Positions 1,596 through 38,281 of a stretch of 38,281 nt of DNA are shown here, in pieces. Position 1 is the first letter of the stretch; every line of letters begins with the position of its first letter. The position numbers and the translations under genes are program-made. The DNA is from a virus: the IMG/VR virus record IMGVR_UViG_3300030339_000122, positions 1 through 38,281 of that record; one strand, given 5' to 3'. The notes below the pieces were generated by a model. It saw nothing but the letters and a program-made list of their open reading frames with translations. It was not told the origin of the DNA and ran no database searches.

Positions 1596-2152
1596 TTGAA
1601 AAGTACGCAATTATTTATGCAGACCCACCATGGACATATAAACAGTCTGGCAGTACAAAAAATAGTCGAGGTATGGCAAAGCAACACTATAACACAATGA
1701 AGATTGAAGATATTTGCAGGTTACCGGTAAGAAACATGGCTGAAGATAATGCAGTTCTTTTTATGTGGGCAACATTTCCAATGATGGCTGAGGCGCTCAA
1801 GGTTATTGATAGCTGGGGGTTCATATATAAATCTGCTGCATTTGTTTGGGTTAAGCAAAATAAAGTTTCTTTAACACCATTTTGGGGAATGGGAGCATAT
1901 ACAAGAGCAAATTCAGAAGTGTGTTTGATTGCAATCAGTAAAAATACAAAAGCAAAAAAGCAAGTTCTATCTCATGCGGTTCATCAAATCATACATGCAC
2001 CAGTTATGAAGCATAGCCAGAAGCCAGCAGAAGTCAGAGATTCAATTGTGAAGCTTTTAGGCGACAGGAAGCGAATTGAACTTTTTGCTCGACAAAAAAC
2101 TACTGGCTGGGATATATGGGGAAATGAATTAGAAAATGATATTGAGCTATGA
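1592..2152 (+). CDS. MT-A70 family DNA adenine N6-methyltransferase
   Basis: It is a SAM-dependent methyltransferase expected to make N6-methyladenine in DNA, probably to protect phage DNA from restriction or to mark it. The 186 residues carry the MT-A70 catalytic motif DPPW near residue 11 (YADPPWTY). They are followed by the family blocks HYNTM, VLFMWATFPM, WGFIYKSAAFVWVKQ, the SAM-binding GxGxYTRANSEVCLIAI-type segment, a HSQKPAEVRD motif, ELFARQKTTGWDIWGNE and a C-terminal acidic tail. Length fits phage members. The start overlaps the preceding gene by ATGA, and it ends by ATGA overlap with the NinG-like gene. No cognate endonuclease is nearby, so it acts as an orphan methylase. Its sequence specificity cannot be read. 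Confidence 0.9.
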   Translation: MIEKYAIIYADPPWTYKQSGSTKNSRGMAKQHYNTMKIEDICRLPVRNMAEDNAVLFMWATFPMMAEALKVIDSWGFIYKSAAFVWVKQNKVSLTPFWGMGAYTRANSEVCLIAISKNTKAKKQVLSHAVHQIIHAPVMKHSQKPAEVRDSIVKLLGDRKRIELFARQKTTGWDIWGNELENDIEL

Positions 2153-2742
2153 AACAACAAACCTGTAAATACATAGCAGAAGACAGTACTAAGTGCCTCT
2201 CTCTATTCCACACAAAAATGTATCACAACCCACCTAAGCCTATAAAACGAACACCAATAAAGAAACCCGACCATATTGCGGAAGTCCGCAATATGGTTTC
2301 AAAAAGTCATATCGTGGCCGGACACAAAATGGAAATTACTAAGGTTAAGAAACCTAGCAAAAAGAAAACAAAAAGCCGTTCCTACTACGTCAAAAAACTA
2401 GACAGTGTGTTCTCTCAATATATCCGCCAGACATACGCCATAGACGGCCTTACGGCCTGCGTAACCTGCGGAGTGATTAAACCATGGCAAGAACAACAAA
2501 ACGGCCACTACGAATCACGAGGAAATTTGCCTACTAGGTGGAGTGAAGATAACTGCCACCCACAGTGTGTAGCTTGTAACGTGTTTAAAAAAGGTAACTA
2601 CACCGAGTACGCTTTGTGGATGATAGACACTTATGGAGCGGACAAACTGGTTGGTTTAAAGGCGAGAGCTAATAGTAAAGAGAAGATACCGACCTTAGTA
2701 ATAAAAGAAAAAATTGAGTATTATAAGGGGTTATTGAAATAA
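2149..2742 (+). CDS. ninG: NinG/Rap-like recombination protein
   Basis: It resembles lambda NinG (Rap), a structure-specific nuclease that acts on D-loops and Holliday junctions in RecA/Red recombination. The 197 residues comprise a basic N-terminal region of about 80 residues, then LDSVFSQYIRQ, a CVTCG zinc knuckle, QNGHYESRGNLPTRWSEDNCHPQCVACNVFKKGNY with the HNH-like His and Cys residues, and a C-terminal helical part. The Cys pairs CxxC and CxxxCxxC match the NinG zinc-binding pattern. It is the last gene before a promoter and a 410-base noncoding stretch. Together with RecT at the other end of the operon it suggests a phage recombination module, although no partner exonuclease is visible. 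Confidence 0.85.
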   Translation: MKQQTCKYIAEDSTKCLSLFHTKMYHNPPKPIKRTPIKKPDHIAEVRNMVSKSHIVAGHKMEITKVKKPSKKKTKSRSYYVKKLDSVFSQYIRQTYAIDGLTACVTCGVIKPWQEQQNGHYESRGNLPTRWSEDNCHPQCVACNVFKKGNYTEYALWMIDTYGADKLVGLKARANSKEKIPTLVIKEKIEYYKGLLK

Positions 2743-2757
2743 TATAAGCTTTTTCTA

Positions 2758-2786
2758 TTGCATTATTAGCACGACCGTGATATTAT
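2758..2786 (+). promoter_or_regulatory. early promoter P1 with palindromic operator block
   Basis: TTGCAT and TATTAT are 17 bp apart with an extended -10 (TGATATTAT). The last 18 bases, GCACGACCGTGATATTAT at 2769-2786, are identical in two other promoters (4106-4134, 36917-36945). They contain the palindrome CACG-AC-CGTG. Unlike the other copies, the GAAAGGAC ribosome site downstream is not followed by an ATG, so this transcript begins with structured noncoding RNA. Confidence 0.8.
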
Positions 2787-2817
2787 TGAATTAGTCCACA
2801 AGAAAGGACAACGAAGC

Positions 2818-3131
2818 AAAGTCGGCATTCCAGTTGTATATCGCCATCGTGCATACCGACCGACTAGCTTTACCAAATTAACAAACCATTGAGCCGTAGT
2901 AGTGCTGGTAGTAACGTGGACTAGCAGTTGCATATGGATGCCACTCTTAGCAACTGAAAAGGATTGCTACTAGCACCATACGGCTCAATACACACATTAA
3001 CAATTAGAGCGTAATAGTGCTGGTAGTAATCTCGCTCCAGTCCTGTGCAGGGAATGGAGTTCTAAAGGGCGAACTAAATGATGAGCCACTCCGAAGACTG
3101 CATATTGTTACCAGCACCATACGCTCTAATA
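2818..3131 (+). ncRNA. structured leader with twin covarying hairpins
   Basis: This occupies most of the 410-base gap between ninG and the next gene. A small hairpin GTCGG/CCGAC comes first (2821-2825 with 2856-2860). Two homologous long hairpins follow. Element 1 pairs 2889-2898 with 2979-2988 and 2902-2914 with 2964-2976. Element 2 pairs 3004-3013 with 3120-3129 and 3017-3030 with 3104-3117. Both have the same NTA/CA internal loop and the core GTGCTGGTAGTAA, while the outer stems differ at four compensated positions. G-U pairs occur only in the plus-strand reading. The apical parts differ; in element 1 a 7-bp hairpin (2925-2931 with 2950-2956) has a loop that can pair as a pseudoknot (2916-2919 with 2941-2944). 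It may be a long 5' leader or a processed RNA. Confidence 0.7.
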
Positions 3132-3152
3132 CAAAACAGAAAGGGCTATCAC

Positions 3153-3353
3153 ATGCCAAACAAAAAGAACACCGTAGAAGAATTTAAAAAAGAAATTAAC
3201 ATCAAACAACTTAACGCTAACTGGCGCACTTTCCTAGTAATGGTAATCGCTGCAACATTCGTATTTACATGGATTCTGTGTTATTTCACAACCCACGCTC
3301 AAATCATGGAAGCAGCACAACTAGTAAATGAAGTGTCAAAAGTAAGTCAGTAG
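3153..3353 (+). CDS. single-pass membrane protein, probable anchor of the lysozyme-like domain
   Basis: The start MPNKKNTVEEF is preferred because GAAAGGG precedes it; an upstream in-frame ATG (3078) lies inside the twin-hairpin RNA. The 66 residues have a charged N-terminus, one strong membrane span (FLVMVIAATFVFTWILCYF, about residues 27-45) and a short external tail ending in SKVSQ. The stop is immediately followed, in the -1 frame, by a Pro/Thr/Val-rich linker and a lysozyme-like domain. The two parts may therefore be one membrane-anchored enzyme joined by frameshifting, or split by a mutation. Confidence 0.65.
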   Translation: MPNKKNTVEEFKKEINIKQLNANWRTFLVMVIAATFVFTWILCYFTTHAQIMEAAQLVNEVSKVSQ

Positions 3354-3730
3354 AAGCCGTCGCTACTGTTCAACCACCACAGACGGTAACTGAACCAACT
3401 ATTGTGCAAACGCCCGTTACAGAGCCTCTGGTACAGCCAAAAGGTGATTGTATTCTGGTTAACCAGTATGATTGGAATACAAGTATTATGTATGCTATCT
3501 GTATGGCTGAGAGTGGCGGAAACCCCAATGCACTAGGTCATAATAAAAATGGAACTACAGACGGTGGGTTACTTCAAATAAACAGCATCCATGTAAATAG
3601 TGGGCTAATCAGTTCAGAAGATAGGTTTATACCTGAAAAGAACTTAGCTGCTGCGTACGCTATTTACAAGGGTTCTGGCTATAAGGCTTGGAGCAGTTAC
3701 AATTCTGGTGTATATTTAAAGTATCTTTAA
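3332..3730 (+). CDS. lysozyme / lytic-transglycosylase-like domain, start uncertain (possible -1 frameshift product)
   Basis: It contains a lysozyme-superfamily core: ICMAESGGNPNALGHNKNGTTDGGLLQINS with the likely catalytic Glu in AESGG, then a helix and KAWSSYNSG. It would cleave peptidoglycan glycan strands. The open frame begins right after a TGA at 3329-3331 and encodes a Pro/Thr-rich linker before the domain. The only in-frame start before the domain is a GTG at 3404 with no ribosome site. Reading from the upstream membrane protein and slipping -1 at the A-AAA-G at 3338-3342 would give anchor, linker and enzyme in one chain of about 190 residues. That arrangement makes better structural sense than a linker with no start. 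An assembly indel is the main alternative. Confidence 0.6.
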   Translation, partial: SVKSKSVEAVATVQPPQTVTEPTIVQTPVTEPLVQPKGDCILVNQYDWNTSIMYAICMAESGGNPNALGHNKNGTTDGGLLQINSIHVNSGLISSEDRFIPEKNLAAAYAIYKGSGYKAWSSYNSGVYLKYL

Positions 3731-4105: not shown

Positions 4106-4134
4106 TTTACATTTTTGCACGACCGTGATATTAT
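4106..4134 (+). promoter_or_regulatory. early promoter P2 with palindromic operator block
   Basis: TTTACA, 17 bp, TATTAT with extended TGA. The block GCACGACCGTGATATTAT (4117-4134) is identical to P1 and P3. The leader has the GAAAGGAC ribosome site, 12 nt before the ATG at 4170. It drives the 4.17-8.5 kb operon of small genes. Confidence 0.8.
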
Positions 4135-6119: not shown

Positions 6120-6366
6120 CAAGCAAATAGAAGATATAATGCAACCAATCCGCAACTACGCAGATATTGTTGAAATTGACAAAGCCGTCCAAGCCCTCTC
6201 TGAATTATTAGTACGGGAACGGATAGAAGAAAATACGCTATGGAAGATAGTTGCTGAAGAAATTGTAGCCAAAGATGGTGTATACCGAGCAGTTAATTAT
6301 TTGAATCAACGTAGCCAAGAGTTGCACGCCCAACTCACACCAGAAAGTAAGGAGGGGCAGATATGA
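6097..6366 (+). CDS. hypothetical protein (89 aa)
   Basis: Helical protein (KQIEDIMQPIRNYADIVEIDKAVQALSELL) with a possible alternative start four codons downstream. It shares ATGA with the next gene. Function unknown. Confidence 0.55.
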   Translation: MSNPMPTNKQIEDIMQPIRNYADIVEIDKAVQALSELLVRERIEENTLWKIVAEEIVAKDGVYRAVNYLNQRSQELHAQLTPESKEGQI

Positions 6367-6545
6367 GTAAAACAATTATTTGCTTTAGGGGTCGTTGTAG
6401 TACTTGGGGTAAAAGCTGGAAATATCATATGTGGACTGCTAAAGAAACCATAGATGAAGGTGAACGTACTGGTGAAGTAGTAACTACAAAATCAGATACC
6501 TGTTACCGATGTGGATTTACAAAAGAGGAGGCTAAGAATGACTAA
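6363..6545 (+). CDS. small Cys-containing protein (60 aa)
   Basis: It has an AGGAGGGG site upstream. A CFRGRC pair at residues 7-12 and a CYRCG knuckle near the end could bind one zinc ion. Trp-rich middle. Possibly a small zinc protein; no specific family recognised. Confidence 0.55.
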   Translation: MSKTIICFRGRCSTWGKSWKYHMWTAKETIDEGERTGEVVTTKSDTCYRCGFTKEEAKND

Positions 6546-17436: not shown

Positions 17437-17886
17437 ATGAATAATAAAGTACTTTATGATAAAGAAGATGAGGAGCTAATAAATCAATATAAGTGGTATA
17501 AGCCTCGTTTATACCATCCCCGCAGTAAGACAATGTATGTTACGGGTTATAAAGATGGCAAAAAAGTGTTAATGCACCGCCTAGTAATGCATTCACCCAA
17601 GGGTAATATAGACCATATTAATGGGAATGGTCTTGATAACAGGAAAATAAATCTTAGAGTAGTAACAAGAAGCCAAAATGGTGCTAATAATGATAAGTAC
17701 AAGAATAATACATCTGGGTATAAAGGTGTGTCTTGGCATAAAAAAAGAAAGGTTTGGCAAGCAAGTTTGTCACATAATGGACATACTGTTTTTATTGGTA
17801 GGTTTAACAACCCCATTGAGGCAGCAGTTGCATATGACAAAAAAAGCGTTGAGCTTTTTGGAGATTATTCAAAACATAATTTTTAA
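17437..17886 (+). CDS. HNH endonuclease with AP2-type domain
   Basis: The 149 residues start MNNKVLYDKEDEELI. The HNH core LMHRLVMHSPKGNIDHINGNGLDNRKINLRVVT has all key residues. The C-terminal AP2/ERF-like DNA-binding domain is SGYKGVSWHKKRKVWQASLSHNGHTVFIGRFNNPIEAAVAYDKKSVELFGDYS. It is a free-standing mobile gene with its own leaderless promoter and is similar in layout to the copy at 26145. Confidence 0.88.
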   Translation: MNNKVLYDKEDEELINQYKWYKPRLYHPRSKTMYVTGYKDGKKVLMHRLVMHSPKGNIDHINGNGLDNRKINLRVVTRSQNGANNDKYKNNTSGYKGVSWHKKRKVWQASLSHNGHTVFIGRFNNPIEAAVAYDKKSVELFGDYSKHNF

Positions 17887-30323: not shown

Positions 30324-30584
30324 TTATCTCCCTAGTGATTGATTCTTTTTTAGTAGTTCCTGTTCAGCTTCCCACTCAATAAGTTGTGGGGTTTTAGCTT
30401 CTGAAATACCTACAGGCGTACCGTTATCAGTTGTATAGGTAGGCGCATAACTACCGGGAGTGACGCCCGCTTGTGTGATTGTATTAATTTCTAAGTCTTG
30501 AGGTTCATGCTTATATATCTTATATGTGAGAACTGCAATAACACTTAGTACAATGACGATAAGACTCAGCAGTATATCAGTCAT
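30324..30584 (-). CDS. single-span membrane protein (86 aa)
   Basis: N-terminal span ILLSLIVIVLSVIAVLTYKIY (residues about 4-24) followed by a polar tail ending EWEAEQELLKKNQSLGR. It overlaps the end of groEL by 8 nt. A spanin-like or envelope role is possible but unproven. Confidence 0.6.
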   Translation of the reverse strand: MTDILLSLIVIVLSVIAVLTYKIYKHEPQDLEINTITQAGVTPGSYAPTYTTDNGTPVGISEAKTPQLIEWEAEQELLKKNQSLGR

Positions 30585-32136
30585 GTTTTTGTTCGCGGTC
30601 TTTAAAGGTTACTGCTACCGAAGCGGTTATAAGTTTAGCGACAACTGAAGTTGAGTTGCGCACCACTTCTTTAATAACAGACGCCGGGTCAACAACACCA
30701 ACCTTTATCATATCTACAGGTTTGTAGTTAAAGTCTTCATCACGGAGGTTATACCCAAAGCCTGGTTTCGAGTTTAAGACTTTGTAGGCAGCTTGTTCCG
30801 TGTTATAGCCAGCATTATCTACAAGAGTTTTAAATGGAGCCTTGAAAGCTTCGCCAAAGTATTCAGATTTAGAGCGAAGAAGAACAGTACCACCGCCGGG
30901 AACAATACCACCATCTAAAGCAGCACGTACGGCTGAAATAGCGTCATCGGCACGTAGCTTGACTTCAACCTGTTCAACCTCTGTAGCCCCACCAACACGG
31001 ATAATAGCAACCTTACCGGTTAGCTTTGAAATACGGTCATGTAATGCTTCTCGAGTTCCCTGTGATTCAGATTCAGCCAGTTGTTGGCGTAGGTCATTAA
31101 TACGCTTTTGGGCAACGTCTGATTGACCCTGAGCACCAATAATAGTTGTCTCAAGTTCATTGATGATTACCTTATCAGCACCGCCAAGCATATCTTTAGT
31201 AAATGAGTTAGGATTAGCGCCAATAGTAAGAACTTGGCCACCAGTCACGATTGCAATGTCTTCAAGGAACAATGAACGCATTGGGCCAGAATTAGGAACG
31301 TCTACTACAGTTGCGTTCAAGACACCCTTTAACTTATTAAGAATAAGAGTAGCAAGTGCTTCTTCTTGCACATCGGCAATTATAACTACTTCAGCGCCCT
31401 GGTTGCCACCTTCAATAATCTTACCGATTAATGGGGTAATGTCGGCAGCGGTTCGAAGGGGTTTATCAGAGATAAGAATATCAACGTCTTCATGTACCGA
31501 TTGCACGGCCGTTGGGTCATTAATAAGATTGACGTGCGTAAAGCCCCGGCGGAAATAAAGACCCTTAACAAGTTCGGAGTAAGTGCCCGAACCAGCAAAA
31601 TCCTCTACAATAACACCGCCATCAAGCCCAACTGCACCAATTACATCGGCAATTAGATGGCCTAATGCTTCGTCGCCAGCTGATACAACTGCTACGTGCT
31701 TTAGTAATTTGGAATCAACATCAATTTTAATTTTATCAATCTGTGCAATAATTTCTAAAGCAGTTTTTTCAAGCATCTTTGCTACTTGCATACGATTGTA
31801 GCCAGCACCAATAAGTTTCCGTGCTTCTTTATAAAGGTTACGAGCCAAGATAACTACAGCAGTAGTACCATCGCCTACCTTAGTATTGTTTTTCTTAGAG
31901 GCCTGTACGATTGTCCGAGCAGCCATATTTTCTACAGCGTCTTCAAGATAAACATTCTTTACGTTCGTAACACCATCACGGCTAATCATTGGGTCGCCAT
32001 AAGGAAGCTCTAGGATTGCGTTACCCGCACCCGGCCCATAAGCAGCTTTAGCAACCTTATATATAGCCTCAACACCACGGGCAATTTTTGCATCTAATTC
32101 TTCATCTGAAATAACTTCACGTACTTGTTTACTCAC
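30577..32136 (-). CDS. groEL: GroEL-type chaperonin
   Basis: It is the 60-kDa chaperonin subunit that folds proteins with GroES in an ATP-driven double ring. The start is a GTG (VSKQVREVISDEEL) with GAGG upstream, inside the end of groES. The 519 residues show group I signatures: AYGPGAGNAILE, ISRDGVTNVKNVYLED, NTKVGDGTTAVVILARNLYKEA (ATP site), AVVSAGDEALGHLIADVIGAVGLDGGVIVED, DDAISAVRAALDGGIVPGGGTVLLR. It lacks the Gly-Met-rich C-terminal tail and is about 25 residues shorter than typical GroEL. A phage copy probably helps fold its own capsid or tail proteins or replaces a host chaperonin under stress. Confidence 0.95.
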   Translation of the reverse strand: MSKQVREVISDEELDAKIARGVEAIYKVAKAAYGPGAGNAILELPYGDPMISRDGVTNVKNVYLEDAVENMAARTIVQASKKNNTKVGDGTTAVVILARNLYKEARKLIGAGYNRMQVAKMLEKTALEIIAQIDKIKIDVDSKLLKHVAVVSAGDEALGHLIADVIGAVGLDGGVIVEDFAGSGTYSELVKGLYFRRGFTHVNLINDPTAVQSVHEDVDILISDKPLRTAADITPLIGKIIEGGNQGAEVVIIADVQEEALATLILNKLKGVLNATVVDVPNSGPMRSLFLEDIAIVTGGQVLTIGANPNSFTKDMLGGADKVIINELETTIIGAQGQSDVAQKRINDLRQQLAESESQGTREALHDRISKLTGKVAIIRVGGATEVEQVEVKLRADDAISAVRAALDGGIVPGGGTVLLRSKSEYFGEAFKAPFKTLVDNAGYNTEQAAYKVLNSKPGFGYNLRDEDFNYKPVDMIKVGVVDPASVIKEVVRNSTSVVAKLITASVAVTFKDREQKHD

Positions 32137-32392
32137 TCTTATAACCTCGAATATCATTAATATCAATAAAGGCAAATATCTTATCGCCGTCTTTTACTTG
32201 AGAGTCATCCTTGAAACCCTCAAAGTATATTTTGCTTCCGATTGGAGGTAGGTCTTTAGCGTCTTCATCAGTTACTTTTAATAATATGCCACTTGTCTTT
32301 GTGTCATACTTTTTTTCTACTGTGTAGACTCCTTCCCATTCTTCCGTTAGTTCAACTAATACGTTTCCGTTCATAGGTAAGAGATTTATCAT
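32129..32392 (-). CDS. groES: GroES co-chaperonin
   Basis: The 87 residues start MINLLPMNGNVLVELTEEWEGVYTVEKKY, continuing KTSGILLKVTDEDAKDLPPIGSKIYFEGF, GDKIFAFIDINDIRGY. The LLPMNGNVLVE start and SGILL mobile-loop anchor match GroES. It would cap the GroEL ring. The start is set by a leaderless promoter with TACAAT 6 nt upstream of ATG. The end overlaps the groEL start by 8 nt, ensuring coupled expression. Unlike some phage co-chaperonins (such as T4 gp31), this phage carries both partners. Confidence 0.9.
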   Translation of the reverse strand: MINLLPMNGNVLVELTEEWEGVYTVEKKYDTKTSGILLKVTDEDAKDLPPIGSKIYFEGFKDDSQVKDGDKIFAFIDINDIRGYKSE

Positions 32393-37929: not shown

Positions 37930-38281
37930 ATGAATAAGCTTTTTAAAGATTTTAACTGGAAGAAGGGTAATTTTAATGAAGCACAAAAAGCGTTTGTTGA
38001 AGAATACGGGCAAAACCAAATAAACATATACCTCAATGGTAAAACTAATAAAGAAATAGCAGAAAAACACTTAAAGGCTGTTTATAAACAATTAGGGAAA
38101 CAAGACCCTAAGGTTACTTGGTATGATTCACCTGAACATCTCGCCAAAACCGTGTGGGCTTCCGTGGGGGATTCCGTGAGGGCTTCCGTGAGGGCTTCCG
38201 TGGGGGATTCCGTGTGGGCTTCCGTGAGGGCTTCCGTGGGGGATTCCGTGAGGGCTTCCGTGGGGGATTCCGTGAGGGCTT
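37930..38281 (+). CDS. DUF6745-like repeat protein, N-terminal part
   Basis: AAAGGAG precedes the start [22 protein letters not shown]. After 77 residues (to TVWA) come ten 12-bp repeat units encoding S-V-G-D, S-V-R-A or S-V-W-A. The gene runs off the end and continues in frame at base 1. The N-terminal part ([27 protein letters not shown]) looks helical. See the entry at 1-728 for the other part. Confidence 0.75.
38161..38281 (+). repeat. 12-bp coding minisatellite
   Basis: Ten tandem units of TCCGTG(G/A/T)GGG(A/C)T, each one tetrapeptide; six more stand at 1-71. The last 48 bases equal the first 48. The number of units across the join is uncertain by four. Confidence 0.85.

Follow-up and report, generated by a model that had tools for sequence, protein, structure and literature searches.

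What kind of element is formed by two adjacent hairpins that share their stems, differ at their tips, and stand between two genes of a phage? The hairpins in question lie in a 38,281-base virus record (IMGVR_UViG_3300030339_000122; the whole stretch that was analysed, called the window below), whose phage genes, as identified by Pfam and PHROG searches, include NinG, an SLT lysozyme-like gene, terminase, portal, RecT, and a Cpn60-like gene. We propose that each of the two is a copy of a new RNA module of phages, one with exchangeable cargo, which we call the clamp hairpin, and we give this reading about even odds (roughly 0.5).

The closest cultured relatives of the window's terminase (46%) belong to Flavobacterium phages. 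The Cpn60/GroEL-like gene is found at 30577-32175 on the minus strand (PF00118, 7.3e-48). Both ends of the record (1-84 and 38150-38281) carry a 12-base tandem repeat, CCGTGGGGGATT / CCGTGAGGGCTT, of which the left-end copy codes for repeated GDSVRASV.

Twin hairpins between NinG and the lysis region

Hairpins A (2888-2989) and B (3003-3130) sit between the NinG gene and a 66-aa ORF, and are built to one common design: an 11-bp outer stem, an RTA/CA (3x2) internal loop, a 13-bp inner stem (GTGCTGGTAGTAA/TTRYTACYAGCAC in both hairpins), and an insert at the tip, the cargo. The features of the region are as follows:

2149..2742, plus strand: NinG/Rap-like endonuclease gene, upstream of the hairpins (Pfam PF05766, 9.8e-22)
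2758..2789, plus strand: promoter-like repeat TTGCATTATTAGCACGACCGTGATATTATTGA of repeat family D4, a putative promoter
2812..2872, plus strand: possible leader hairpin with its own loop, AAGC..GTCGG / CCGAC..GCTT (by eye from the sequence)
2888..2898, plus strand: A, outer stem, 5' side, ATTGAGCCGTA
2899..2901, plus strand: A, internal loop GTA, opposite CA at 2977-2978
2902..2914, plus strand: A, inner stem, 5' side, GTGCTGGTAGTAA
2915..2963, plus strand: cargo A, variable insert of 49 nt
2964..2976, plus strand: A, inner stem, 3' side, TTGCTACTAGCAC
2977..2978, plus strand: A, internal loop CA
2979..2989, plus strand: A, outer stem, 3' side, TACGGCTCAAT
2990..3002, plus strand: spacer between A and B, ACACACATTAACA
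3003..3013, plus strand: B, outer stem, 5' side, ATTAGAGCGTA
3014..3016, plus strand: B, internal loop ATA, opposite CA
3017..3029, plus strand: B, inner stem, 5' side
3030..3104, plus strand: cargo B, variable insert of 75 nt
3105..3117, plus strand: B, inner stem, 3' side, TTGTTACCAGCAC
3118..3119, plus strand: B, internal loop CA
3120..3130, plus strand: B, outer stem, 3' side, TACGCTCTAAT
3153..3353, plus strand: 66-aa ORF with a hydrophobic stretch, in a holin-like position, RBS AGAAAGGG; first gene past the hairpins
3404..3730, plus strand: ORF with an SLT/lysozyme-like domain, lysis region (Pfam PF18896, 3.3e-13; PF01464, 5.6e-10)

The first-pass annotation had described twin tandem hairpins with a common core, and both are present at that place: the core GTGCTGGTAGTAAY (up to two mismatches) occurs five times in the window vs 0.64 times in shuffles, and four of the five occurrences are the arms of A and B. 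The claim of four differences between the outer stems, each matched by a compensating change, is correct, while their length, given there as 10 bp, is 11 bp. The statement that G-U pairs appear on the plus strand alone also holds, as on this strand the stems of A and B contain G-U and no A-C pairs. The RNA fold z-scores of A and B are -6.25 and -4.94 on the plus strand and -4.66 and -5.69 on the opposite strand; since both hairpins fold strongly on both strands, z alone does not indicate the strand, and A and B in a single genome cannot by themselves tell an RNA from a single-stranded DNA hairpin.

The promoter-like repeat at 2758..2789 is the probable start of the hairpin-bearing transcript. 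D4 has three copies in the window, at 2758, 4106, and 36917. In a consensus promoter scan, the copy at 4106 was the only one of these to score, and promoter-like sites near the hairpins were not in excess (5 vs 4.2 in shuffles). All three copies contain GCACGACCGTGATATTAT, followed by AGAAAGGAC in two of them and by CGAAAGGAC in the other. The 66-aa ORF has no match in Pfam or PHROG, and its homologues come after the hairpin in three related loci (L022, L031, and L035). NinG homologues, grouped by blastp clustering, are found near the hairpin in L012, L015, L022, L025, and L035.

A covarying scaffold in phages and bacterial genomes

The scaffold also occurs in 35 other records, giving a total of 39 hairpins in 36 records, which include the window and one bacterial MAG contig (L057). 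A pattern built on both inner arms matched nine viral contigs, and patterns built on one arm matched 25 and 29 stretches in overlapping sets. Two viral contigs (L023 and L032) were one-arm false matches and were removed, and 14 of the 15 one-arm matches in genome_contigs are not elements. L018 carries the same hairpin as L011 and was left out of the counts. Further copies are found in two other bacterial genomes (L081 and L082) and, with a different inner stem, at 124-228 of L031, while one more copy (L130) stands outside all counts. The contig L043 contains a stretch of more than 2 kb twice, 100% identical and 2749 bases apart, as a duplication or an assembly artefact; the second L043 copy of the hairpin was left out of the ATTAACA and RBS-ORF counts given below. 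The full pattern (9-bp outer stem, GTA, 9-bp inner stem ... CA) has 37 matches in 1,107,353 bases of loci and none in two shuffled passes, a figure that is not a genome-wide rate, as these loci were largely fetched by the motif itself.

Among cultured phages and plasmids, blastn with the scaffold gave chance-level matches only. The terminase relatives of the window (L002-L010, several of which are fragments) contain no such hairpin at E values up to 1, so the module does not simply track the terminase lineage. A covariance-model search of 379 genomes returned no match but also missed the known copy in genome G001, which makes its negative result uninformative. A pattern search of 392 genomes of G001's class gave matches in 24 genomes, of which three are elements. 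The genomic settings of the hairpin vary. In one group (the window, L012, L022, L031, L035, and others), it lies ahead of genes for small membrane proteins or lysis, with NinG nearby. Prophages of small-genome bacteria have it close to genes of the host: RecG, a phosphomannomutase, and an rsmD-like protein (the last by eye) on one side of the L139 hairpin and YqaJ on the other, and Ddl, a Mur ligase, and tRNAs in L138/L082. On L137, another hairpin-like repeat (GCACTAGAAC ... GTTCTAGTGC) comes right after the clamp hairpin, at 6300-6520. Genomes of G001's class are mostly 0.5-1.3 Mb in size, and a Saccharibacteria 16S primer target is present in two of 12 genomes: twice, each time with one mismatch, in G001, and as an exact match in G539. 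The small-genome carriers are likely Patescibacteria-like and, tentatively, Saccharibacteria.

Covariation was assessed in an alignment (A1) of 22 hairpins from the set of 39, in which the shorter inserts predominate. In A1, 95.5% of cells pair, compared with 20-56% when the partner is slid. Two-sided changes occur at 12 of 24 pairs (5.4 in shuffles) and in 53 cells (17.4 in shuffles), and the covariation score of 0.297 (0.117 in shuffles) was reached by none of 500 shuffles. The outer helix is the most variable part, and the inner helix is nearly constant, with a retained G-U pair. Compensatory changes thus exceed both the shuffle and the slide controls, as expected for a conserved structured RNA. 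The family thereby bears out the selection for structure that the first-pass annotation had seen in the two copies of the window, and relatives that keep the sequence and lose the pairing, which it had named as counter-evidence, were not seen among the collected copies.

On the sense strand, G-U outnumbers A-C by 71 to 6 in the inner stems and by 16 to 5 in the outer stems (39 rows; L039, L045, and L046 are out of register here and in the ATTAACA count, and were included as they fell). Elements that were found on both strands score higher on the sense strand than on the opposite one. Of 35 hairpins, 19 are followed within 300 nt by the start of a same-strand RBS-ORF (at least 40 aa), compared with 3 of 35 in the mirror control. 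In 15 of 38 copies, the 14 nt that precede the stem on its 5' side contain an ATTAACA-like motif (25 of 1900 control windows). The G-U bias, the same-strand ORFs, and the ATTAACA-like motif point to a transcribed RNA that would fold on the sense strand; the G-U bias by itself would equally fit folded single-stranded DNA. The aligned sequences show the scaffold to be a hairpin of two helices joined by a 3x2 internal loop, which is conserved, covaries, and is preferred on the strand of the next gene.

Cargo exchange and a second scaffold

The suggestion that one scaffold presents different loops extends beyond A and B: almost every phage has loops of its own, substituted where the inner stem ends. 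Cargo lengths range from 29 to 227 nt across the family, and blastn among the 39 cargos (E 0.05) found only the pair L024/L026, the L043 duplicate, and one 13-nt match between L014 and L028. In three loci of one lineage (L020, L038, and L043), the 5' stretch (350 nt plus arm) is 95-97% identical and the 3' stretch (150 nt) 90-94% identical, while the cargos are no more alike than shuffled controls. The alignments break off no more than a few bases from where the 5' arm ends and pick up again where the 3' arm begins. In L097, which belongs to the same lineage, the site is continuous and without a hairpin. L014 and L027 have the start of the 3' flank in common and differ in cargo and 5' flank, and the difference between L022 and L035 is one whole hairpin. 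The L024 and L026 hairpins are 92.6% identical including their cargo, with no further alignment of at least 60 nt within 1.5 kb on either side, so that their surroundings are unrelated. Their differences fit 57 predicted pairs, three of which are kept by two-sided changes (two inside the cargo and one in the outer stem).

The contrast between flanks and cargo, the empty site, and the L024/L026 pair together indicate that cargo is swapped, that modules are gained and lost, and that at least one cargo is held as a structure. The tip takes cargo of any sequence and of any length within the observed range, which is replaced wholesale between close relatives. A site that has an entire hairpin in one phage can lack it in another, and hairpins of this kind are found in unrelated phages. 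Cargo on its own folds little better than shuffles (mean z -0.56; below -2 in 3 of 38), and most cargo therefore need not be structured. The cargos have no k-mer in common beyond shuffles and no common motif, and cargos A and B have no antisense match within the window beyond shuffles. A 14-nt same-sense match to cargo A (AGCAGTTGCATATG) at 17823 of the window is probably due to chance. Three inserts (L034, L047, and L057) contain an RBS-like sequence followed by a start codon, with a stop codon ahead of the 3' arm; viral_contigs contains no relative of the L034 protein, so this ORF may not be a gene. By eye, the L039 cargo is a tRNA-like sequence ending in CCA, and the L028 cargo has a T-arm-like end.

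In L020, L038, and L043, the hairpin belongs to an array of different RNA scaffolds placed side by side (at least four, by eye), whose arms stay constant while their inserts are swapped between these close relatives. A second scaffold is a tRNA-Leu-like RNA with GTGGCGGAATAGGTAGACGC, seen at L038 (5073, oriented), L019, L033, L043, and L091-L129, in which the T-arm is split by a variable insert (GCAGGGTGACTATACGAGT ... CTCGTCAAATCCCTGC). Its 19-mer is found in 44 viral stretches, representing 40 distinct loci, and the scaffold has no Rfam match in the carriers scanned. Like the clamp hairpin, it combines constant arms with hypervariable inserts, lies mostly between phage genes, and has matching acceptor arms that differ between phages. 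Unlike the clamp hairpin, it has another sequence and fold, and cultured Lactobacillus-group phages also have it with no insert in the T-loop. Its copy in L107 sits inside a stem resembling that of the clamp hairpin. Simpler, unannotated tRNA-Leu-like RNAs with a variable middle are found in cultured Lactobacillus-group and Hujiaoplasma phages (L131, L132, L133, L134, and L135, from position 1201), and those of the Lactobacillus-group phages are not called by Rfam.

Known RNAs, alternative readings, and a possible mechanism

The clamp hairpin is apparently undescribed. Rfam 15 gave no match on the window at the gathering threshold and, on 14 carrier-related loci, called only two ordinary tRNAs in L082 and nothing over the hairpin; a permissive Rfam scan of 2743-3160 gave two chance-level matches (E 3.6 and 3.9). 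ARAGORN called no tRNA or tmRNA on the window, and none of its calls on 35 carrier loci overlaps a type-1 (clamp) hairpin. The literature searched, at the level of abstracts and with partial text of PMC10746230, PMC12286853, and PMC12045711, contains no description of it. GOLLD and ROOL have constant parts and a variable linker, with tRNAs sometimes present in that of GOLLD; like the clamp hairpin, they are structured phage or prophage RNAs of unknown function in which constant RNA is joined to a variable part (PMC12286853). GOLLD and ROOL are large and many-helixed, whereas the clamp hairpin has two helices and no Rfam match to either, and is set against them by the wholesale replacement of cargo among closely related phages. 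The TIGR guide arrays that belong to Tas systems are RNA arrays in phages and Patescibacteria, some with stem-loops and variable parts, but their spacers are 8-12 nt long, compared with 29-227 nt for clamp cargo, and a Nop-domain protein is encoded alongside (PMC12045711). The Nop domain (PF01798) was found in 0 of 12 phage records, which may be fragments, and in 4 of 14 control genomes. As each testable named family fails a defining feature, and as we know of no phage RNA in which a fixed clamp has the cargo at its tip exchanged wholesale, we regard the clamp hairpin as new in kind; on a stricter view, it may be a further family of structured phage RNAs, next to GOLLD and ROOL.

Some features of the clamp hairpin recall regulatory elements in phage transcripts. 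The RNase III signals of T7-like phages have two helices of ~10 bp and an asymmetric internal loop in a polycistronic transcript, and the predicted clamp geometry fits this; unlike the clamp hairpin, these signals are not known to need a conserved inner-stem sequence or an exchangeable tip. The HK022 put antiterminator RNA likewise has paired hairpins in the leader, and we know of no exchangeable inserts in put. Along these lines, the hairpins might be cis-acting transcription elements near an operon start, which suppress termination in a put-like manner or set expression, with an idle tip that is free to vary. Such a role would suit the tandem twins, the position ahead of lysis genes and after NinG in the window and several relatives, and the 19 of 35 hairpins that lead a same-strand RBS-ORF. 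We nevertheless consider it unlikely, though the foremost of the alternatives: compensatory pairs are kept in the L024/L026 cargo, so the tip matters at least there, cargo can contain ORFs or tRNA-like sequence, and the L020/L038/L043 hairpin lies within an array of RNA elements, in two of three cases without a close RBS-ORF behind it. Less likely than a cis element is a DNA element for recombination or mobility, whose palindrome would fold as single-stranded DNA into a site for cassette insertion or swapping, like integron attC or the hairpin end of a transposon. An attC site likewise combines an imperfect palindrome with a terminal part that varies, and is linked to the exchange of cassettes, and a DNA element would be consistent with cargo junctions at the arm ends, the empty site in L097, the transfer between unrelated phages (L024/L026), the L138 and L139 hairpins near a host/prophage border, and the serine recombinase gene on L137. 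But the orientation and G-U bias of the hairpins follow the neighbouring genes, no target-site duplication is readable between L097 and L020/L038/L043, and ordinary recombination through the constant arms accounts for the junctions. Moreover, the R''/R' boxes of attC are ordered RYYYAAC..GTTRRRY, and the outer clamp arms, ATTRAGC..GCTYAAT, have the inverse order, in an orientation that follows transcription.

Less likely again is a minimal tRNA-like RNA, in which the inner stem and ...GCACCA would mimic an acceptor, be trimmed by RNase P and trailer nucleases, and yield a product that titrates a tRNA-handling factor. The 3' side indeed reads AGCACCA in almost all copies, L017 and L107 contain a tRNA-Leu-like element with an acceptor resembling or lying within the clamp stem, and the L039 cargo is tRNA-like. 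Weighing against mimicry are the lack of any tRNA or tmRNA call on the window and of any Rfam tRNA over the hairpin, the pairing of leader with trailer, which would hinder RNase P, and the absence of a D- or T-arm common to the cargos. Most records are metagenomic and the L043 contig has a duplicated stretch, as might be expected of chance, an assembly artefact, or a functionless plain DNA repeat; this explanation is highly improbable and already contradicted by the presence of the hairpin on separate contigs of many samples and in three bacterial genomes, and by covariation far above shuffles.

In the preferred reading, that of an RNA module with exchangeable cargo, the clamp hairpin would be transcribed together with the operon behind it, and its long interrupted duplex would be recognised on the RNA by a host or phage factor, resulting in an RNase III-like cut or in binding of a protective protein. 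RNase III does not need strong sequence conservation of the inner stem, which counts against an RNase III-like cut. The cargo would be freed or stabilised as a small RNA, in three cases a tiny mRNA, and cargo exchange would occur by homologous recombination through the ~20-nt constant arms. The least certain step, which we regard as possible rather than probable, is that the cargo has its effect in trans and is subject to diversifying selection, with conflict between phage and host or between phages as the most plausible setting. More broadly, we tentatively suggest that phages, including Patescibacteria-like prophages, might carry an RNA cassette system with at least two unrelated constant scaffolds (the clamp hairpin and the tRNA-Leu-like RNA with T-loop inserts), each of which would display RNA effectors that are hypervariable, exchangeable, and turned over in conflict, whereby the effector is changed and the holder kept.

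If true, the clamp hairpin would be a modular viral RNA platform that annotation has missed for want of any sequence conservation in the cargo. It would also make a set of phage small RNAs searchable by their holder, from which the cargo can then be read out, and would raise the question of what selects for such fast cargo replacement.
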